DNA from: Kiritimatiellia bacterium
GTDB lineage: Bacteria > Verrucomicrobiota > Kiritimatiellia > RFP12 > UBA1067
DNA: 46,316 nt
NCBI GenBank assembly: GCA_024405395.1
Contig: JAKSOW010000009.1
Span: forward strand, 1-46,316
Reading direction: 5' to 3'
The notes below the pieces were generated by a model that was given only the letters and a program-made list of their open reading frames with translations, did no database searches and was not told where the DNA came from. This document shows, piece after piece, positions 30,503 to 42,703 of the stretch (its first letter is position 1; the number at the start of each line of letters is the position of its first letter). Both the position numbers and the translations under genes were made by a program.

Positions 30503-32116
30503 TCAGCACGCATTCGAGGACTCGCGCGCCTTGACGGGAAAGCCCGGCAACTCCGTGGGGTGCGGATGGCGCACCTGGCCCGGATAGTCAAGCGTGTAGT
30601 GCAGGCCACGCGACTCATGGCGCTTCTGCGCGCTCTTGACGATCAGCTCGGCGCAAACCGCAAGATTGCGCAACTCCAGCGTATCAGGCGTGACAAGATA
30701 GTCGAAATAGTATTCGCGAATCTCCTTGCGCAGCGTCTTGATGCGGTGCAAGGCGCGCTCAAGGCGCTTGTCGGTGCGCACAATGCCCACGTAGTCCCAC
30801 ATCAGACGACGGATTTCGTCCCACATGTGCGCCACGAGCACGGCTTCGTCCGGGGCGACGGCACGCCCGATCTTCCAGGCGGGGATGGCGGTCTTCTCGC
30901 GCTTGACGCCCTTGGCGGCCAATCGCTTGGCCGTAAGCCGCGCCGTGACCAATGCCTCCATCAGCGAATTCGACGCCAGTCGATTGGCGCCATGCAGACC
31001 CGTACAGGCCGTTTCCCCCACAGCGGAAAGGCCCGCGACCGAGGTGCGCCCATCCACCGTCGCCTTGACGCCGCCACAGCAATAGTGCGCCGCCGGAACG
31101 ATGGGGATGAGGTCCTTGGCCATGTCAATGCCGAAGTCCAGACACTTCTGGTAGATGTTGGGGAAACGCTTCCGAAGGAAGTCTCGACCCTTCTTGCGGA
31201 TGTCCAGACAACAGTAGGGAGCGCCGGTGCGCTTCATCTCGCTGTCGATGGCGCGCGCGACAATGTCACGTGGCGCAAGAGAACCGCGCGCATCATATCG
31301 CTGCATGAATGGCTCGCCCTTGCGGTCGACCAGGATCGCCCCCTCCCCGCGCACAGCCTCGGAAATGAGGAAGCGCTTGGCCTTGGGATGGTAAAGGCAG
31401 GTGGGATGGAACTGGATGAACTCCATGTTCTCGATCTTGGCGCCCGCGCGCCAGGCCAACGCCACGCCATCGCCGGTGGCCGTATCGGGATTGCAGGTGT
31501 AAAGATACACCTTGCCGCAGCCGCCGCACGCCAGAATGGTTTCGGCCGCCCGAATGGCGTAGATCTCGTTCGTTGTCGTATCGAGCACGTACGCACCCAC
31601 ACAGCGGTTGGGACCTTTGAGGCCCAGGCGCTTGGTCACCACAAGATCGATGACCACCGTGTCTTCGCGCACATCGATCTCGGGGGTCTTGCGAAGCGTT
31701 GCGATCATCTCCTCCTCGCACTTCTGCCCCGTGATGTCGCCGGCATGGAAAATGCGGCGCGCGCTATGGCCGCCTTCACGCCCCAGTTCCCAGGAGCCGT
31801 CCTCCTTCTTGGCAAACTTTACGCCACACTGGATCAGATCGTCAATGCCGCCACGAGCCTCCTCGACGATCTGCCGCACGACGGCCTCGTCGCAAAGCCC
31901 CGCGCCGGCCACGAGCGTATCGGCGACATGGGCGTCGTACGAATCATTGGGATCCGCCACGCAGCAGATGCCGCCCTGGGCGAAGTTGGAGTTGCAGTCG
32001 GCCAGTTTCTGCTTGGTCACCAGCACGACCTTTCCCGCTTTGGCAAGGTGAAGCGCCGAGATGAGGCCGCTCATTCCCGAACCGACAACGAAGAAGTCGC
32101 AATCGACAATACGCAT
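30503..32116 (-). CDS. nadB: L-aspartate oxidase
   Basis: 537 residues from ATG 32116 (MRIVDCDFF); the frame is open upstream but overlaps the next gene. It oxidises L-aspartate to iminoaspartate for NAD synthesis. The FAD site is VVGSGMSGLISALHLAKAG. Active-site segments QFHPTCLYHPKAKRFLISEA, RGEGAILV and SNSLMEALV are present, with a helical C-terminal domain. GGATT lies eight bases upstream of the ATG. nadA and nadC are not in the window. Confidence 0.94.
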   Translation of the reverse strand: MRIVDCDFFVVGSGMSGLISALHLAKAGKVVLVTKQKLADCNSNFAQGGICCVADPNDSYDAHVADTLVAGAGLCDEAVVRQIVEEARGGIDDLIQCGVKFAKKEDGSWELGREGGHSARRIFHAGDITGQKCEEEMIATLRKTPEIDVREDTVVIDLVVTKRLGLKGPNRCVGAYVLDTTTNEIYAIRAAETILACGGCGKVYLYTCNPDTATGDGVALAWRAGAKIENMEFIQFHPTCLYHPKAKRFLISEAVRGEGAILVDRKGEPFMQRYDARGSLAPRDIVARAIDSEMKRTGAPYCCLDIRKKGRDFLRKRFPNIYQKCLDFGIDMAKDLIPIVPAAHYCCGGVKATVDGRTSVAGLSAVGETACTGLHGANRLASNSLMEALVTARLTAKRLAAKGVKREKTAIPAWKIGRAVAPDEAVLVAHMWDEIRRLMWDYVGIVRTDKRLERALHRIKTLRKEIREYYFDYLVTPDTLELRNLAVCAELIVKSAQKRHESRGLHYTLDYPGQVRHPHPTELPGFPVKARESSNAC

Positions 32117-32135
32117 GATGTTCAATCCATCCTTA

Positions 32136-33212
32136 TCATTTCGCAAAAGGCGAAGATTGCTTGACGACCTGCAGATAGCGCACCGTCTCCACTGCATCCT
32201 CAAGCGAAACCACAAAAGGCGCGGCCCTGCAGACGCTGTCGTGGAGCGCGCGCCAGAATCCCACGGCGGCGGAATCCGTCCCTGCCCAGGAGACGGCGTA
32301 GTCCTTGACCGGAATCTCCTCGTGCATATCCGCCACTGGCGGTGTGCGCACAGAACAGCGACGACGAGCGAACTTGAAATCAGGGTCGATGGCCCGGATT
32401 CTACCCTCCAGCACCCCCGGCATCACCGAAAACGCACCGCGATCCCCCCGAACCTCAAAGGCCGGCAATCGGGCATCCATGCGCCCGCCGCCCACATCGA
32501 TGTACACGGACATGTTGCCGCGCCCCTTGAGCACAAGGTGCAGCGTGTCCTCCGCGTCGCCAAGGGATACCACGCGCTTGAGTTCACCCCACAGCTGGAC
32601 TGGGGCGCCCCCCAGCAACATCACGGCCTGCTGCACGACCTCGGGCCCCTCATACCAAGTCGCCCCGCCGCCACAACGCTTCAGGCTTTGCCAGTCATCA
32701 CGCCGCACATAATCCTGCCTCCGCACGACGGCCTCGTAGATGGTGCCCAGACGCGAATCCGACAGCATCTGGCGTGCAAGCAGGAATTCGGGGGCGAACA
32801 GTCCCGGCAAACACGGGAACAACTTGCCACGAGCCTTGAGGGAGGCAGCCTTCAGCAGGGTGGCCTGCTCATGGGACAGGGCAATGGGCGATTCCAGCAC
32901 TGTCCATTTTCCACGGGCCAGCGAGGAGAGCGCGCACGCGACATGTTCACTGGAGGGCAACGCGATGAACACGAGGTCCATTTCCGGATCATCCAGCATA
33001 TCCTCAACGCGCCGATAGGGGCGAACCGCAGGATAAACCTGTGCCACCCGATCCCGACGCTCCTTCTCCAGATCGCAGACCGCTGACACCGTGTAAAGCT
33101 CCGGCAAGGCCTGGAAGGCGCTGAGATGCGTCAGCAGCACTGACCGTCCCGCGCCGACAATGCCAACGCGAACGGGTGGACGATGGGAGGAGATGTCTGC
33201 CGCAGTTTCCAT
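32136..33212 (-). CDS. Gfo/Idh/MocA oxidoreductase homologue with altered EKP motif
   Basis: 358 residues from ATG 33212; a TTG four codons earlier also reads in frame. The N-terminal Rossmann domain starts VRVGIVGAGRSV and continues DLVFIALPSSEHV. In the family the next motif is E-K-P, with the lysine catalytic; here it reads ESP at 107-109 (WTVLESPIAL), so the lysine is lost. The C-terminal alpha/beta domain is intact. It may bind sugar without redox activity or use another residue. It lies in the secreted-glycan gene group. Confidence 0.8.
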   Translation of the reverse strand: METAADISSHRPPVRVGIVGAGRSVLLTHLSAFQALPELYTVSAVCDLEKERRDRVAQVYPAVRPYRRVEDMLDDPEMDLVFIALPSSEHVACALSSLARGKWTVLESPIALSHEQATLLKAASLKARGKLFPCLPGLFAPEFLLARQMLSDSRLGTIYEAVVRRQDYVRRDDWQSLKRCGGGATWYEGPEVVQQAVMLLGGAPVQLWGELKRVVSLGDAEDTLHLVLKGRGNMSVYIDVGGGRMDARLPAFEVRGDRGAFSVMPGVLEGRIRAIDPDFKFARRRCSVRTPPVADMHEEIPVKDYAVSWAGTDSAAVGFWRALHDSVCRAAPFVVSLEDAVETVRYLQVVKQSSPFAK

Positions 33213-33234
33213 GGGTGATTGCAAGATGCGGGAA

Positions 33235-34620
33235 TCAATGCGTCAGCAGGCGCTTCAGCTGCTCCAGCTGGCCGCCCACCAGATCCTTCTCAAGTGCTTC
33301 TGTGTAGAACGAACTCCGCGCCTCGTAGCCGCCTTCGGCAAACGCCGAGGCAACCGGCAGATAGCCATAGCTGCCGTTGGTCAGGCAGGCCGGCAATGTC
33401 ATTTTGTATGGCGACCCCTTCTTGACCGCCAGGCCATAAGCCGTAAACGGTTCGCCCGGAAAACCGGCGAAGGCCAACGCATCGCCAATGACAATCGTGC
33501 TGATGGGCAGCTCAAAGAAGTCTGGTCCGTCAATGAGGCGCATCACGCGACGCGCCCAGGCCTTGTTCGTGGTCTTCTGCATGCCAATGCCGGGGATTTC
33601 CGAATCTTTGCCGGCGGCAGCCAACTCCGTGATGCGGCGGGCTTCCGGGATTTCGCTCGCTTTCGGCCGATTGGACGCCGTGCGCACCCAAGAAACCGCA
33701 TAACGCACAGCGCCCGCATTGACGGGCACACATTCATCCCAGATGCCGATTGCCGCACCGGCGATCTTGCGTCCCATGTGGCGGAAGACAACATTGCGTC
33801 CACGCGGCACGTTCTTGGAGGAGTCTGTGCAGATGTGGTTGGTGTCGCCCTGCGCCCCGTTGAGACATACGCATTTGACCCCATTCAGTGCCCGCTCGAC
33901 CGTCTCGCGCACTTCGCGAGGCCAGTCCGCCGAGATCTTGTTGCCGCCAATCGTGTCGGGATGGCACTGGAAATTGACGAGCGCAACAGCCTCACGCCCT
34001 TCGCGGTCGAAGCGCACCAGCTGCACCTCCTCGTCGGCGGCGCCGATCGGCCCGGCGATCTGCGGATTGTCCAGACCGGGGTTCGTGCGCACCGAACCGT
34101 CCTTCATGCGGTACCGGCGGATGAAGGAGATGTTCTTGGCCTCACCACGCGCGACGGCGATTGTGGCGGGCGCAAGATCCGTCAGCGCCAACTGGGCGGC
34201 GGACGCCAGACGGTCCCCCAGCGACCGCACATAGGTGTTGGCGTCCGCGAAGTCCTTGGCGACGTCGCCATAGTGGCTGACGCCGAGCACGGGGCCCGTA
34301 TGCGTGTGCGTGGCGGAGAGGAAGATGGCCTCCGGCGGCAGGCCAGTCGCCTTGGCTACGCCGGCGCGGTAGAGTTCGGCGTAGGCGCGCAGACTGATCA
34401 CGTCAACGGAAATGACGACGGCCTTGTTGGTGCCGTCCGAAAACGCGAGCGCATTGGCCTGTAGGGTGTCAAGGACCCCATCCGAAACACGCTTATGGAA
34501 ATAGCCCGAGAGCTCCGTCCCCAGCGGCGGCGTGACATCCACCCGCGAGAAGCCCACCTCAAAGCCAGCCTGGGCGACCGCCGCCCAAAGCGCCAATCCC
34601 ACCACGATCACGTTTCTCAT
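33235..34620 (-). CDS. Neutral/alkaline ceramidase-like secreted protein
   Basis: 461 residues from ATG 34620 with GGGAG upstream; an ATG at 34635 is an alternative. A signal peptide (about 1-18, cleaved after AQA) is followed by the ceramidase N-terminal domain: GFSRVDVTPPLGTELSGY, the zinc motif THTHTGPV, and FQCHPDTIGGNKISADWP with GAQGDTNH. Family members hydrolyse N-acyl bonds of sphingolipids, but many bacterial relatives in glycan loci have unknown substrates. This protein is shorter than the two-domain enzymes and lacks the C-terminal beta domain. Confidence 0.82.
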   Translation of the reverse strand: MRNVIVVGLALWAAVAQAGFEVGFSRVDVTPPLGTELSGYFHKRVSDGVLDTLQANALAFSDGTNKAVVISVDVISLRAYAELYRAGVAKATGLPPEAIFLSATHTHTGPVLGVSHYGDVAKDFADANTYVRSLGDRLASAAQLALTDLAPATIAVARGEAKNISFIRRYRMKDGSVRTNPGLDNPQIAGPIGAADEEVQLVRFDREGREAVALVNFQCHPDTIGGNKISADWPREVRETVERALNGVKCVCLNGAQGDTNHICTDSSKNVPRGRNVVFRHMGRKIAGAAIGIWDECVPVNAGAVRYAVSWVRTASNRPKASEIPEARRITELAAAGKDSEIPGIGMQKTTNKAWARRVMRLIDGPDFFELPISTIVIGDALAFAGFPGEPFTAYGLAVKKGSPYKMTLPACLTNGSYGYLPVASAFAEGGYEARSSFYTEALEKDLVGGQLEQLKRLLTH

Positions 34621-34649
34621 TTCACACACTCCCATTTCTGAAACCCAGA

Positions 34650-36944
34650 CTACTGAACCTCTTCAAGCCGCATGCCGTCAAACCATGCCGTCCCGGTGGA
34701 CTTGAAGGCCCGCAGCCAAATCATGCTGCGATCCCGTTCCGTGCCGGCGTCTGCGCTGGTAGTGAACTCGGCGGCGAAATGCCCCCAGTCCTCAGACCCC
34801 TGCACCAACACCTCGGGCACATGCAACGCCGTGTACTTCGGCGTGTACTCTTCGTATTCCATGCAGACCCCGCGACCCTTGGCGTTCTCGGTCTTCAGGA
34901 AATAGGAGAGCCGATAACGCGTGTTGGGCTTGAGCTGCCCCTTCACGGAAAAGCCCACATAATGGTTGCCGCCGGAAAGGTCCAATCGAAGGGCCCCTTC
35001 CGCCGTGACGCAGACGTTGGTGTCGACGACATATCTGGCACCCTTCCACTTCGACCGATCCGACACAAGGTTGACGGTATTGGGACGCTTGGCGCGGCGC
35101 GCCAACTCAGCTGCCACAGAGACACGCTCGGCGAAGGCGGCCTGGCGTGTGGCCATGGGCGTAAAGAAATTGTCGCGAATCCAGGCGATGCGCTTGGCCT
35201 CCATCGATCCGGCGGCAACTGCGGCCTGTGCCCGGTTCAGATACCCGGCGAACTCGGCAATGGCCTCTGTTCCCCAGATGTTCGTCCACAGGGCCTTTTC
35301 CGTTGGGCCCACAAGCCAAGGGCCGATCTCGGTTTCGCCGATAAGCGACGGGATCGCAATCTCGCCGATCCACTTGCGCTCCAGCCCATCGAAGAACCTG
35401 GTCATTTCGGCGGCGCCCGCACCAAACATCAGGCGATGGTGTTCAGCCAGCATCTCATCCACGTCCACATCATTGTCCCAGGCGAAACGCGACCACACGT
35501 AGTAGTTGAGGTAATTGTAGATGAGTGAATCCTCGCCCTGATTCGACTCAACAAATGAGCCGTCAATATATGGCGCGGCGCGCTTGTAGAACGAGATGTA
35601 TGCACGTGGCGCATGCTGCGGCACGTCCGGCGCCTGAAGACGACCGTAGTTCTTCATCGGATAGGTCCATATCCAGGCCACCTTGCGGCCTAGCTTCTGC
35701 GCCCAGCCACGGACAAAGTCGATCTGCTTGTCGCGGATGTCGGGATACGACTCGGACCAGGGACCGCCCACGGCCAACACGACCGCCACATTGTTCGGGA
35801 TCTCGATTGACGGCAGATTGCGGTAGGTACCATACGCCATCTGGGAAACGCCGCCGTCCAGTCCCGCCGCCGTGATCGCCTTGGCCACGGAGACCGTGTT
35901 CGACCAGATCAGTTCAGTGGCGTAGCCAGAGGCCAGCGTGAAGTTCGTGGTGTTGAAGACACGCTGGCAATTTTCGCAGCGGCAGGCCTGCATGCCGTCC
36001 TGCGGCATCACGTCAACCCATTTCTTCCCCTTCCTTATCCGTTCCACCGTCTCCTGCCGGATGATGTCCCACACTGGCGAGGTGTGGCACAATTGCCGCC
36101 CCTCATAGCCATGCTTGAACACCGTTCCCGTGCAGCGCGTGCCATTCTTCCGAAGCTGAAAGTATTCGGGATGGGTTTCGCTGAAGCGCTCGGCGATGCG
36201 GAAGCCATTCTGGCCATGGCAACAGGGGATCTTGAAGGTGCTTTCGCGCAGCCGCAGCTTGTACAGTTCCTTGGCCTGATACTGAGCAAGGACATTGGTG
36301 GCCACTCCCGGATAAGTGCCCGCGCCCCGAATGTAGCAGTCACGGTAGGAAAACGCAGGCGACACCGACGTTTCGCCTTCTGGCACGGTGAAACTGGTTT
36401 TCTGCGGGACATAGGTTCCCATCTCGCCCGGGAAATAGAAGCGAACACCAGCAGCGCGATGCAGGAACTCATAAGTGCCAAAGAGCGTGGCCCGCTCAAA
36501 AAGCCCCACGCCACCCCGCATGACGCCTCTTGCCGGATCCTGCTGTGGATCATCCAAACCGCACACGTAGACCCGACGCCCCTGCGCCTTGATGACAAAG
36601 GCGTCGCGCGCCAGTTTTTCCGGCGCCAAGCCGGCTGCGGCAGACCATTCATTCTGTCCCAGGATGAGGACCGTCTTGCCCTCGCTGGGGGTGCCGACAA
36701 TCGGCACGGCGGCCCCCAGAACCTGGGCGAGAAAATTCGTCGCCTCCTGGGCGGCAAAACGCACAGTAGGCACCGCGCTCGGCGCCACTACCACTTCCAC
36801 ATTCCCTGCCGCAAAAGGCACATCCGCAGCACCCGCGGCCAACGCCATCGTTCCGGCCAGCAGGAACGACCAAAAGGCATTGGGCTTGGGCCGGCCAGTC
36901 AGGTGACGCGTCGGCGGATGACTTTCCGTCTTGTTTCGTTTCAT
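34650..36944 (-). CDS. DUF4838-type secreted glycoside-related protein (internal start)
   Basis: 764 residues from the internal ATG at 36942-36944, which has AAGAAGG eight bases upstream. The N-terminus has a basic region, then a hydrophobic core (AFWSFLLAGTMALAAG) that looks like a signal peptide. An alpha-glucuronidase N-domain-like beta fold (about 45-160) leads to DUF4838 with FYFPGEMGTYVPQ, the cysteine cluster CRCENCQ and WTYPMKNYGR. The last 150 residues are a jelly-roll carbohydrate-binding module (LKPNTRYRLSYFLKTEN). DUF4838 proteins occur in polysaccharide-use loci; the enzymatic activity is not established. Confidence 0.72.
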   Translation of the reverse strand: MKRNKTESHPPTRHLTGRPKPNAFWSFLLAGTMALAAGAADVPFAAGNVEVVVAPSAVPTVRFAAQEATNFLAQVLGAAVPIVGTPSEGKTVLILGQNEWSAAAGLAPEKLARDAFVIKAQGRRVYVCGLDDPQQDPARGVMRGGVGLFERATLFGTYEFLHRAAGVRFYFPGEMGTYVPQKTSFTVPEGETSVSPAFSYRDCYIRGAGTYPGVATNVLAQYQAKELYKLRLRESTFKIPCCHGQNGFRIAERFSETHPEYFQLRKNGTRCTGTVFKHGYEGRQLCHTSPVWDIIRQETVERIRKGKKWVDVMPQDGMQACRCENCQRVFNTTNFTLASGYATELIWSNTVSVAKAITAAGLDGGVSQMAYGTYRNLPSIEIPNNVAVVLAVGGPWSESYPDIRDKQIDFVRGWAQKLGRKVAWIWTYPMKNYGRLQAPDVPQHAPRAYISFYKRAAPYIDGSFVESNQGEDSLIYNYLNYYVWSRFAWDNDVDVDEMLAEHHRLMFGAGAAEMTRFFDGLERKWIGEIAIPSLIGETEIGPWLVGPTEKALWTNIWGTEAIAEFAGYLNRAQAAVAAGSMEAKRIAWIRDNFFTPMATRQAAFAERVSVAAELARRAKRPNTVNLVSDRSKWKGARYVVDTNVCVTAEGALRLDLSGGNHYVGFSVKGQLKPNTRYRLSYFLKTENAKGRGVCMEYEEYTPKYTALHVPEVLVQGSEDWGHFAAEFTTSADAGTERDRSMIWLRAFKSTGTAWFDGMRLEEVQ

Positions 36945-37721
36945 GGGGAATGCCTTCTTGGGGGATTCAGAACGTACGGGCTTGAAATCGTCGTACTGCG
37001 ACAGTTGGGCGATTTCCGCCTCTGACAGGTCGCGCCATTGGCCAGGCGCCAGATCCTCGGGCATGCGAAAGGCCCCCACGGCCACGCGCTTGAGCGACAG
37101 CACCACAAGATGTGCGGCCGAGCACATGTAGCGGATCTGCCGTTTGCGGCCTTCACGCAGCTTGAAGCACAGCACATGCACGTTGTCGCGACCCTCGCGC
37201 ACGACCTCGACAGGGACGGGACGTGTGACATAACCGTCGGGCATTGTCACGGGACCGCGCAGGATGCGCAACTTGTCTTCGTTCCATCGGCCGGCGGCAC
37301 GCACGATGTAGGTCTTCTCATGCTCATACCGCGGATGGGTGAGCTTGAGAGTGAGATCGCCGTCGTTCGACAGGAGCAGAAGCCCTTCCGAGTCCTTGTC
37401 AAGCCGCCCCACCGGCACAAGGCGTTCGCTCATGCCGCCGTTCTTGCGCAGCAGGTCGATGACCGTTTCGCCGTGCGGGTCCGAGACCGAGGACAAAACA
37501 CCGACCGGCTTGTACATGACGATTGTGCGGGTGCGTTCACGGGCCGTGGCAAGCGGCTGCCCATCCACGGAGATGCGTGCAGTCGCCGGGTCGAATCGTG
37601 CGCCGGGCTCGCGAACGACCAGCCCGTCCACGGCCACGCGCCCTTCTTCGATCATTGTGGCGGCCGCGCGCCGCGAAGCCACGCCACGATGGGAAAGGAT
37701 GTTCTGCAGACGCTCTTCCAT
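34650..37721 (-). CDS. Rlu-type pseudouridine synthase frame continuing into DUF4838 protein
   Basis: One uninterrupted 1023-codon frame. Residues 1-250 are a complete RluB/RsuA-type pseudouridine synthase: S4 RNA-binding domain (1-50), VMYKPVGVLSS, the catalytic Asp108 in GRLDKDSEGLLLL, and the typical C-terminal GRKRQIRYM and LKRVAVG. There is no stop after it; nine residues of linker lead to Met260, where a signal peptide and a DUF4838 protein begin. A cytosolic rRNA enzyme and an exported protein in one chain make little sense, so the synthase may be made as a fusion or the DUF4838 part separately from the internal start. Confidence 0.8.
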   Translation of the reverse strand: MEERLQNILSHRGVASRRAAATMIEEGRVAVDGLVVREPGARFDPATARISVDGQPLATARERTRTIVMYKPVGVLSSVSDPHGETVIDLLRKNGGMSERLVPVGRLDKDSEGLLLLSNDGDLTLKLTHPRYEHEKTYIVRAAGRWNEDKLRILRGPVTMPDGYVTRPVPVEVVREGRDNVHVLCFKLREGRKRQIRYMCSAAHLVVLSLKRVAVGAFRMPEDLAPGQWRDLSEAEIAQLSQYDDFKPVRSESPKKAFPMKRNKTESHPPTRHLTGRPKPNAFWSFLLAGTMALAAGAADVPFAAGNVEVVVAPSAVPTVRFAAQEATNFLAQVLGAAVPIVGTPSEGKTVLILGQNEWSAAAGLAPEKLARDAFVIKAQGRRVYVCGLDDPQQDPARGVMRGGVGLFERATLFGTYEFLHRAAGVRFYFPGEMGTYVPQKTSFTVPEGETSVSPAFSYRDCYIRGAGTYPGVATNVLAQYQAKELYKLRLRESTFKIPCCHGQNGFRIAERFSETHPEYFQLRKNGTRCTGTVFKHGYEGRQLCHTSPVWDIIRQETVERIRKGKKWVDVMPQDGMQACRCENCQRVFNTTNFTLASGYATELIWSNTVSVAKAITAAGLDGGVSQMAYGTYRNLPSIEIPNNVAVVLAVGGPWSESYPDIRDKQIDFVRGWAQKLGRKVAWIWTYPMKNYGRLQAPDVPQHAPRAYISFYKRAAPYIDGSFVESNQGEDSLIYNYLNYYVWSRFAWDNDVDVDEMLAEHHRLMFGAGAAEMTRFFDGLERKWIGEIAIPSLIGETEIGPWLVGPTEKALWTNIWGTEAIAEFAGYLNRAQAAVAAGSMEAKRIAWIRDNFFTPMATRQAAFAERVSVAAELARRAKRPNTVNLVSDRSKWKGARYVVDTNVCVTAEGALRLDLSGGNHYVGFSVKGQLKPNTRYRLSYFLKTENAKGRGVCMEYEEYTPKYTALHVPEVLVQGSEDWGHFAAEFTTSADAGTERDRSMIWLRAFKSTGTAWFDGMRLEEVQ

Positions 37722-37730
37722 GGGGCGATC

Positions 37731-39227
37731 TTAACGGCCAAGGATCTGCTTGTAGAGCGGCAGCACCGCGTCGGCCCACACCGTATAGCCGGCCGCATTC
37801 GGATGCGTGCCATCACCCAGCAGCGTGATATCGGGAAGGCCTTCCTTGTCGGTGAACTTGCCCGTGAGATCGCACCACAGGACGCGCTCGCCGTCCGCCA
37901 GCGGGCGGATCAGCTCATTGACCTTCTGGTGCTTGGGCATCAGTTCGTCGCAGGCCCGGCCTTCACGGCGGAAATTGCGCTCGCCGCGCTTGTGGGCCAC
38001 CTCACGGGGCAGGAGGGGCATCAGGAGCACCTTCGCCTGAGGCTGCTTGGCACGGATCGTCTTCAGGCATTCGGCGATGCCGGCGGCGATGTCCTCGGCC
38101 GTGTCGCCCCAGGCGTTGTTCGTGCCGATCATCAGCGTGATCAGGCGCGTGTGCACGCCGTCGAGTATGCCGCCATGGCGGATGTTCCACAACAGGTTCT
38201 GCGTCTGGTCGCCGCCAAAGCCGGCGTTGAGGATCTTGTACGCGCCAAACTTCTGCTTGAACACTTCGTCGTTTCCCTTGTGCTCCCAGAAGTGGGTTAT
38301 CGAATCGCCCAGCCAGATCGCGTCATAGTAGCGCTCGACATTGGCGCACTCCTCCGCGCGCTTGTTGCGGATACGCGGCTCCACCTTCTTGTTGGGGTTG
38401 TCAAGCCAATACTTCTTGATCTGCGGAATCGTGGTGCGCGGCCCCGTCTTGGGCAAAGCCGTGGGCATCAGCTTCGCCGGACGGCGCGGGGGCACTTTCG
38501 TGGACAGGCCGAGCGCATAGTCAAGATAGGGCTTCAGCTCCTCGGCCCAGATCTCATATCCCGGCTCACGCGGATGGAGCAGATCGGGCGCCATCGTCTT
38601 CTCCAGCACGCCTTCGGGCGTGACGAGCTTCGCGTTGAAGTCGCACCAGAAGATGCGCTTGTTGTCCGCAAAGTCGCAGATGACGGAGTTGACCAGGTCA
38701 TTGCGCACGCGCATCGGATCGTTCGTGGTGGCCCCACGCGGGAAGATCGGGTGCAGGATGACCTTGGCCTCGGGATACGAGGTTGTCAAACGTGCCAGGA
38801 TTGACTGCACGCCCAAAATGGTGTCTGTAGGCGGCTCCTCCCAATCGTCACGATGGCCGGTGTTGTTGGTGCCGATCATCAGCACAAAGGCTTTGGGAGT
38901 GAGCTTGGCCAGCTGCCCATGATCAAGCCGCCAAAGCAGATGTTCCGTGCGGTCACCCGAAATGCCACAGTTGAGCGCCTTGTAGGGGCCTTCCGCAAAG
39001 ACACGTTGCCACACGCCCGTGCCATAGCGCTCCCAGTTGTGCGTAATCGAGTCGCCCAGGAACACGACGTCATAGCCACCTTCTGCAGCCAAGGCGCGCT
39101 TGGCGTCAAAACGCGGCAGCCACATGCCATGCGTCCAGTGTCTTTCGGGAATCGACGGCGTGACCGCGAGCTGTGCACAGGCAGCAAGGCCAACCAAGAG
39201 AAGACCCGAAACGATGAATTTATGCAT
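37731..39227 (-). CDS. Tandem SGNH/GDSL hydrolase lipoprotein
   Basis: 498 residues. The N-terminus ends in a lipobox LAAC (Cys17), so probably a lipoprotein. Two SGNH domains follow: the first with GDSI (Ser60), GTNN (119-122) and DLLHP (Asp215, His218), the second with GDSI (Ser309), GTNN (369-372) and DGTHP (Asp472, His475). Both triads are complete, so both could be active esterases removing acetyl or acyl groups from glycans. AGGAG precedes the ATG; an extended -10 promoter lies 34 nt upstream. It is next to the Rlu/DUF4838 gene. Confidence 0.85.
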   Translation of the reverse strand: MHKFIVSGLLLVGLAACAQLAVTPSIPERHWTHGMWLPRFDAKRALAAEGGYDVVFLGDSITHNWERYGTGVWQRVFAEGPYKALNCGISGDRTEHLLWRLDHGQLAKLTPKAFVLMIGTNNTGHRDDWEEPPTDTILGVQSILARLTTSYPEAKVILHPIFPRGATTNDPMRVRNDLVNSVICDFADNKRIFWCDFNAKLVTPEGVLEKTMAPDLLHPREPGYEIWAEELKPYLDYALGLSTKVPPRRPAKLMPTALPKTGPRTTIPQIKKYWLDNPNKKVEPRIRNKRAEECANVERYYDAIWLGDSITHFWEHKGNDEVFKQKFGAYKILNAGFGGDQTQNLLWNIRHGGILDGVHTRLITLMIGTNNAWGDTAEDIAAGIAECLKTIRAKQPQAKVLLMPLLPREVAHKRGERNFRREGRACDELMPKHQKVNELIRPLADGERVLWCDLTGKFTDKEGLPDITLLGDGTHPNAAGYTVWADAVLPLYKQILGR

Positions 39228-40664: not shown

Positions 40665-41990
40665 TCATTCGGAAGTCCAGGTAATCAGATTCCAGAGCAC
40701 GGAATGCCGGACGGGGCCATTGGGTTCGGAAGACGAGCTCCAGAAGGTCCAGAACGGGGCCCAATTGCGGTCAAATCCTTCGGCATGGCGGATGGGAATC
40801 AGTTCCAATGCCCGACTCTTGGAGTACCCGTTCTGCGCAGATGAGCTCCAGAACGGCCAGATACGTCGATAGGAGGCCACCTCATGGCGTGTGCCATTCG
40901 CCGACTTCACGTACCGACACTCCGATGTCCAGAACGGGAAAAACGAGAAGCGCGTCTCCAGCGTGGTTTCGGTCTCCAGCTCCGTATCCTCCACTAGCTT
41001 CCAGAGAATGCGGTACGTACGCTCTTCCGGAACCTGTTTTGCGAATGAAAACCCTTCCACCTGTTCATAGAATGGCCACACGGATATTCGGTCACGTTTG
41101 GTGCCGTGCTCGACATCCACAAACGGCCATGGCAAGCGCCAACGCGTGACATGTGGCGTATGGGTATAGGAGAAGAACGGCGGCAGCACGAGATGCTGCT
41201 CCTCGCGCGCCCGGAAAACGGTACCATAGAGCGGCCAGAGCATCCAGGAATGTCCCGCACCTGCCGTATCGCGGTCTTCGTCATAGCGTGCCCATGTGGC
41301 CAGAGGCCACAGCGCATACCAGTGATCGCTCTCGCGAAGGCGGGCATGGCTGAAGATCGGCCATAGGCCAATCGTACCTGTGCCATTCTCCTTCCAGGTT
41401 AGAAATGGCCAGAGAACGGCGCCATGATGAATGGCCTTGACGTCATAGTCCATCCACAGGGGCCAAAGCCCAAAGCGCCAATGGTCCATCAGGAGAAAAT
41501 GCGGATGGGAACCATAGATCGGGAAGATGCCCCAGTAGTCCCCTTCCCGGCGGTCAGCGCCACAGAAGATGAGCGGCAGGAGATTGAAGCTCCAGGAATC
41601 GTCCACTCCGTCACGCGCATCGCCATAAGCCAGAAAGAAGGCGCGCCACCAGAGATGGTCCTGATTGCGGTGGCTGGTCACCAGGGGCCAGACGATGTCG
41701 CGGGTGGTGACTTCCGGCGAACGGAGCTGGGAATAAAACGGACGGAAAGCCCAGAACGTGCGCAACCGCTCTTCGGCAGTTCCACCTGCAGGCGTAGGGC
41801 CAACGGCCCGCCGATATTCGAAGAACGGCCCGCCATGCCAATGGGAACGGACTTCGCCGCCCTCCGTGACCTGTTGGACCTCCAACGACTGCCCACACAC
41901 AATCTGCGCAACACCCAGCAGGCAAAGCACAACGGCGAGGATCGCCATCCTCGCCGAATGTACTGCCTTTTCGTGGGTTGACCGCGTCAT
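40665..41990 (-). CDS. Secreted tryptophan-rich LWPF-repeat protein
   Basis: 441 residues from ATG 41990 with AGGAGG four bases upstream. A signal peptide spans about 1-33. After it come about 15 irregular repeats of 20-30 residues, each centred on W-P-[LFI] or P-[FI] followed by a polar loop: IVWPLVTSH, FGLWPLWMD, AVLWPFLTW, IGLWPIFSH, WMLWPLYG, LPWPFVDV, ISVWPFYE, RRIWPFWSS. Alternating aromatic strands and polar loops suggest a beta-barrel or beta-rich outer-membrane protein. I recall similar unnamed proteins in other PVC-type genomes but no function. It is the last gene after rph in the gltS operon. Confidence 0.7.
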   Translation of the reverse strand: MTRSTHEKAVHSARMAILAVVLCLLGVAQIVCGQSLEVQQVTEGGEVRSHWHGGPFFEYRRAVGPTPAGGTAEERLRTFWAFRPFYSQLRSPEVTTRDIVWPLVTSHRNQDHLWWRAFFLAYGDARDGVDDSWSFNLLPLIFCGADRREGDYWGIFPIYGSHPHFLLMDHWRFGLWPLWMDYDVKAIHHGAVLWPFLTWKENGTGTIGLWPIFSHARLRESDHWYALWPLATWARYDEDRDTAGAGHSWMLWPLYGTVFRAREEQHLVLPPFFSYTHTPHVTRWRLPWPFVDVEHGTKRDRISVWPFYEQVEGFSFAKQVPEERTYRILWKLVEDTELETETTLETRFSFFPFWTSECRYVKSANGTRHEVASYRRIWPFWSSSAQNGYSKSRALELIPIRHAEGFDRNWAPFWTFWSSSSEPNGPVRHSVLWNLITWTSE

Positions 41991-42007
41991 CAGGCCTCCT
42001 CTACGCC

Positions 42008-42703
42008 TCACGCACGTTTCTGCAGCGTGAATAGGCGCTTGAGCCCCTTCTTTGCCAGGGCTCGGAGCTGGTCAAGCTGCTCTTCCGTGAAGGGATCGTG
42101 CTCGGCCGTTCCCTGCAGCTCGACAAAACGCCCGTCATCCGTCATCACGACATTGAGGTCGACGTCAGCCGTCGAGTCATGCACATAGTCCAAATCCAAC
42201 GTAGGCGTGCCCCCGCAAATGCCCACAGAAACGGCGGCGACATTATGAACAATCGGGTTCTCGGTGATCTTGCCTTCGGCCAGCAACTTGGCGACGGCGT
42301 CCTTTAGCGCCACCATGCCGCCCGTGATCGAGGCACACCGCGTACCGCCATCGGCCTGGAGCACGTCGCAGTCGATTGTGATGGTGCGCTCGCCCAGCTT
42401 GGTCATGTCCACCGCCGCACGCAGCGCACGCCCCACCAGACGGGAGATCTCGGTGCCGCGCGCATCTGGCTTGCCCTTCTTCGACTCGCGCTCCTTGCGC
42501 GTCACCGTTGAAGACGGCAACATCGCGTATTCGGCCGTCACCCACCCTTTGCCCTGGTCACGCAGAAAAGGCGGAACCTTCTCTTCCACGCAAGCCGTGC
42601 ACAGCACCCAGGTGTTGCCCCATTTGATGAGCACCGAACCTGCGGCATGGTGCGTGAAGTTACGGATGATTTCGACCGGACGAAGCTGATTGGCGGATTT
42701 CAT
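42008..42703 (-). CDS. rph: Ribonuclease PH
   Basis: 231 residues from ATG 42703, two bases after the gltS stop. A phosphorolytic 3' exoribonuclease that trims tRNA 3' ends. Signatures: [67 protein letters not shown] and [20 protein letters not shown]. It is somewhat shorter than the usual 238-240 residues but complete. An upstream in-frame ATG lies inside gltS and is unlikely. A tRNA gene heads the same transcript. Confidence 0.94.

Follow-up and report, generated by a model that had tools for sequence, protein, structure and literature searches.

What does a bacterial reading frame encode when it begins as a cytosolic rRNA pseudouridine synthase and ends as an exported DUF4838 protein: one new kind of protein, or two ordinary genes between which the stop codon has been lost? 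The question is raised by a frame on the minus strand of a 46,316-nucleotide stretch of Kiritimatiellia DNA, hereafter the window, which corresponds to contig C271 in a draft genome of 4.04 Mb (MAG, 281 contigs, 84% complete). The relatives of this organism are Kiritimatiellae MAGs, many of ruminant-gut origin. The first-pass annotation had described a single frame without a stop from 34650 to 37721, and all 1023 codons (1023 aa) are indeed open, i.e., the fused frame is real in the sequence as given. We conclude that a new kind of protein is the less likely answer: the frame most probably arose by recent loss of the stop codon, or it reflects a sequence error of one base.

From the N-terminus to the C-terminus, the frame consists of the synthase (residues 1–241), a tail of 18 residues, Met260, a long leader and the DUF4838 protein with a carbohydrate-binding fold at its end. 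On re-reading the sequence, the positions first given for these parts, including Asp108, the AAGAAGG motif, Met260 and the hydrophobic core, were all correct. The features of the frame and its two neighbours are as follows:

37731..39227, minus strand: upstream gene for an exported protein with two GDSL/SGNH hydrolase domains, 9 nt before rluB (Pfam, spacing)
34650..37721, minus strand: whole frame, RluB/RsuA-type synthase, tail, signal-like leader and DUF4838 protein (open reading frame)
36999..37721, minus strand: pseudouridine synthase part, residues 1–241 (Pfam, TIGR00093 above cut-off, PDB RluB 9cl9/4lab, relatives 50–82% identical)
36945..36998, minus strand: non-conserved tail, residues 242–259, where the stop codon of the relatives falls (comparison with relatives)
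36953..36959, minus strand: AAGAAGG, Shine-Dalgarno-like, 8 nt before ATG260 (sequence; pairing energy -4.5 kcal/mol)
36942..36944, minus strand: ATG260, candidate own start of the DUF4838 gene (sequence)
36825..36944, minus strand: signal-peptide-like leader, residues 260–299 (n-region 260–281, core 282–299, possible cleavage at AGA-AD; disordered in the model)
34650..36824, minus strand: mature DUF4838 protein, residues 300–1023 (Pfam, AlphaFold, Foldseek)
35397..36431, minus strand: Pfam DUF4838 (PF16126), residues 431–775 (95.7 bits against a gathering score of 26.6, profile positions 2–321 of 325)
34749..35048, minus strand: CBM-like end, CBM_4_9, residues 892–991 (Pfam, below the curated cut-off)
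33235..34635, minus strand: downstream gene for an exported neutral-ceramidase-like protein, 14 nt after the DUF4838 stop (Pfam, spacing)

The synthase half belongs to the RsuA/RluB family. An S4 domain (Pfam, residues 3–43, 36.9 bits, cut-off 22.8) is followed by the catalytic domain PseudoU_synth_2 (residues 66–202, 69.8 bits, cut-off 26.8), and the NCBIfam pseudouridine synthase model TIGR00093 scores 135.6 bits against a cut-off of 109.3. The catalytic Asp108 lies within GRLDKDSEGLLLLSNDG, with its codon at 37398–37400 of the window, and the motifs GRLDKDSEG (D108), HEKTY and GRKRQIR are all retained in the aligned relatives. The closest solved chains, aligned over residues 1–249, are named RluB (PDB 4lab, 9cl9). 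The half scores 119 bits with the NCBIfam RluB equivalog model (23S U2605), below its cut-off of 290, and is also under the equivalog cut-offs of RsuA and RluF; judged by these scores, "RluB" is a label of convenience here. Its sole other match in the same genome is distant (32% identity, E 7e-4, on contig C213) and there is no close paralogue, so no gene of this type other than that in the fused frame was detected there.

The exported half is a full DUF4838 protein, as first annotated: the Pfam match is above the gathering score over the full domain. Its structure was predicted for this part alone. The AlphaFold model has a pLDDT of 84.5 and is confident from about residue 40 on, with the first 38 residues, the leader, disordered (pLDDT < 50). 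A Foldseek search with this model finds GH115 alpha-glucuronidases first (best matches 4c90 and 5by3), then GH84, GH67 and GH20, with E-values of 1.7e-19 to GH115 and 1.4e-9 to GH67. The fold is thus of the GH115/GH67 type, though the TM-scores over the whole chain are low (0.3–0.45), and the C-terminal sandwich resembles CBM16. A sequence search of the PDB with the same part gave no significant match, only weak ones to CBM16. From the model it can be suggested that this half is an exported glycoside hydrolase acting on plant or host glycan. DUF4838 is almost absent from the open literature that was searched, with a passing mention in one paper, and the model of 34650–36824, with its likeness to GH115, GH67, GH84 and GH20 and its CBM16-like sandwich, is a lead to the activity of this unnamed family.

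Between the two halves, the tail (residues 242–259) has no counterpart found in the relatives. The anti-Shine-Dalgarno pairing energy at Met260, -4.5 kcal/mol, is stronger than that at the start of rluB, which is only -1.5 kcal/mol. The motif is supportive evidence for a start but not strong, because 20% of the 228 other internal in-frame ATGs reach the same energy. The leader that follows has a hydrophobic core, AFWSFLLAGTMALAAGAA (residues 282–299), behind an n-region of 22 residues, which is unusually long compared with the relatives, and residues 242–281 are rich in K and R, which places positive charges ahead of the core. The core is somewhat less hydrophobic than the signal peptides of the relatives, with a best 15-residue mean of 1.67 against 1.83–2.47. 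In the fused frame the tail has a coding score of 4.8 bits, compared with -6.5 +/- 4.3 for stop-free shuffles (p about 0.003). As a control, stop-free stretches behind the stop codons of relatives were scored in the same frame, and 2 of 27 score as high; such scores are therefore not rare and that of the tail is only suggestive.

In the relatives the two halves are separate genes. An RluB-type synthase is present in 107 of the 115 genomes of the family, the own genome included. Its 3' end was read directly in 44 of the 107, among them nearly all genomes with long open frames, and the stop falls at codon 235–361, mostly 237–249, followed by unrelated genes. In the remaining family genomes the stop-to-stop frames of the synthase are too short for a fusion. 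The fused architecture is therefore found in none of the 106 other RluB-bearing genomes of the family; it is also absent among the matches listed from 288 genomes of the class, where the long frames that were read stop normally. Not one of these relatives shares the architecture, as at least one would for a conserved multidomain fusion. One class member with a 1129-aa frame (G284) was considered as a second fusion and rejected, as its extra length lies upstream of the synthase and its stop is normal.

In the sister species (G021), the only other member of the genus that was compared, the gene order is dnaE, PHP protein, rluB, exported alpha/beta hydrolase, nagB, tRNA and tuf, the names being assigned by reading the translations. 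Here the 3' end of rluB overlaps the start of the signal-peptide-bearing alpha/beta hydrolase by 37 nt (L059:14337-14373) in another frame, i.e., the rluB tail of the sister has also run into a downstream gene for an exported protein. The first-pass annotation had proposed that a stop between the domains in close relatives would make them two ordinary genes. A stop does follow the synthase in every relative examined; in none of these relatives, however, are DUF4838 and rluB adjacent, and the precise arrangement in the ancestor, before a stop loss, is therefore not observed.

Orthologues of the DUF4838 half, 58–62% identical, exist in about ten genomes of the family (gut MAGs), none of them near rluB, and most of those with the start present open with their own short signal peptide, e.g. 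MKSRTIIMVAMFCAVCTAHA. The window's own genome contains several DUF4838 paralogues. In one (C204, L145:3261-8120, minus strand, 1619 aa) the domain is fused to an exported FAD-dependent oxidoreductase, and another (C222, L146:3521-8167, plus strand, 1548 aa) is a tandem double DUF4838 with weak matches to the N- and C-terminal GH67 models. In a further family genome (G033, L074:1717-4782, frame 1030), DUF4838 forms one frame with a Y_phosphatase3 protein, which has a signal peptide at its N-terminus; no internal one is present, and this true but export-compatible fusion was rejected as a parallel. DUF4838 thus combines with other proteins, but these are exported and preceded by an N-terminal signal; a cytosolic partner followed by an internal signal was found only in the frame of the window. 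Two other long DUF4838 frames are not fusions: one (G031, 1323) has open sequence upstream of a normal start, and the other (G111, 1346) a normal signal peptide just before the domain.

The frame lies between same-strand neighbours at 9 and 14 nt, and with such gaps a short spacer with a stop would be expected between synthase and DUF4838 as well. Among other gene pairs of the window, an overlap of -4 (ATGA) is seen four times. Elsewhere in the window, a 448-aa frame upstream of a WbsX-like gene (40665–42011) has no Pfam match, and two listed frames with TTG starts, 32136–33224 and 30503–32215, overlap by 80 nt; the start of the FAD protein among these is probably further downstream.

We suggest, with a probability of about 0.58, that two ordinary operon neighbours have lost the stop between them and that the exported enzyme is still made from Met260. 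Loss of the synthase stop, with two nested starts in one frame, was one of the two options first offered for this locus, and it fits best because the fusion occurs in a single genome, the orthologues are separate genes, and Met260 carries a Shine-Dalgarno motif and a signal-like leader. By the generally accepted route to overlapping bacterial genes, a mutation turns the stop of the upstream gene into a sense codon, and translation then runs on until it reaches an in-frame stop within the next gene (PMC10666635). With a neighbour in the same frame, as at this locus, that stop is missing, and a single merged frame results. We infer the event that removed the stop, the use of both starts and the fate of the fusion as follows. 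Ribosomes starting at 37721 would read through into the DUF4838 gene and yield a long fusion, and those starting at ATG260 (36944) would yield the normal exported glycosidase-like enzyme. The synthase domain of the fusion would stay cytosolic and functional, and the leader inside it would probably serve as a type II (internal) export signal or else remain an inert tail. In Sec-dependent signal anchors, a positively charged N-side suggests a cytosolic synthase and an exported DUF4838 part, perhaps with a cut by signal peptidase. Against this reading stand the unobserved state before the loss, the long n-region, the weaker core and a Shine-Dalgarno level that is common among internal ATGs.

A serious alternative, though a clearly less probable one, is that a one-base sequencing or assembly error has removed the stop in the draft contig and that the organism has two separate genes. 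A single indel anywhere in the tail would suffice, since frame +2 has a TGA at codon 251 and in frame +1 the A after ATG260 creates a TGA overlapping the start codon; this ATGA is the same -4 overlap that other gene pairs of the window show. In addition, a single substitution would create a stop at any of eight codons in 237–259 (seven of these at or after codon 241), there are runs of five C at 36960–36964 and four C at 36945–36948, and the genome is a draft MAG in 281 contigs at 84% completeness. However, the contig is not rich in errors, as the neighbouring genes that were checked are all intact. Up to Met260 the tail also resembles coding DNA in the frame as assembled, and runs of five bases are short for an error of short-read sequencing.

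Stop loss or error is preferred over a selected fusion, i.e., one functional protein whose core would hold the synthase at the membrane's inner face and leave the DUF4838 enzyme outside. This second of the options first offered has no comparative support, and a selected, membrane-tethered rRNA modifier is improbable and unsupported. The frame is open, the K/R-rich stretch precedes the core, and DUF4838 accepts partners in the clade, as the phosphatase, oxidoreductase and double fusions show. These known partners, however, follow a signal peptide at the N-terminus and do not require a second, internal one, the fusion is absent from every other genome examined, and the join bears the marks of a gene start (Shine-Dalgarno, ATG, signal) and not those of a domain linker. 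To our knowledge, rRNA modification and glycan digestion have no functional link. A chimeric contig, with rluB and DUF4838 lying apart in the organism itself, is also very unlikely. Neither gene keeps the neighbours known from its relatives, and elsewhere neither rluB nor DUF4838 was seen next to relatives of the flanking genes, but in this family gene order is, as a rule, not conserved. The genome has a single copy of the junction, no repeat lies at it, GC is uniform across it, both genes are complete and on the same strand with normal operon spacing, and a chimeric break would have to hit a few dozen bases by chance while harming neither gene. A further reading, also very unlikely, takes the frame as real, with both products made from a nested-start gene whose internal signal peptide splits the fusion at the membrane; this would be a bacterial self-separating polyprotein that gives an exported glycosidase and an rRNA modifier, the latter either cytosolic or membrane-tethered.

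The finding is mainly a caution and a small natural experiment. Stop loss between packed operon genes that are in phase produces a biologically odd annotated fusion, and automatic annotation of the frame would wrongly link the domains of rRNA modification with those of glycan digestion. The locus would also allow testing whether an internal signal peptide rescues the export of a downstream protein.

Compared with known systems, the synthase half shares with the RsuA/RluB family (TIGR00093, PF01479 and PF00849) the S4 and catalytic domains and the GRLD motif with Asp108, but it has no stop after the domain. With the DUF4838 proteins (PF16126) of Kiritimatiellae, Lentisphaeria and relatives, the exported half shares the full domain, the leader and the CBM-like C-terminus, whereas its start sits within a longer frame and its n-region is long. 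It has the N-terminal alpha/beta domain, TIM barrel, helical part and beta-sandwich of the GH115 and GH67 alpha-glucuronidases and the GH84 and GH20 hexosaminidases, at a sequence identity of about 10% and with the low whole-chain TM-scores given above. Finally, the locus resembles overlapping genes that arise by stop loss (PMC10666635), in that an upstream stop would have become sense and reading continues into the neighbour. An out-of-frame version of this arrangement exists in the sister species, while in the window the neighbour is in the same frame and the two frames have merged.
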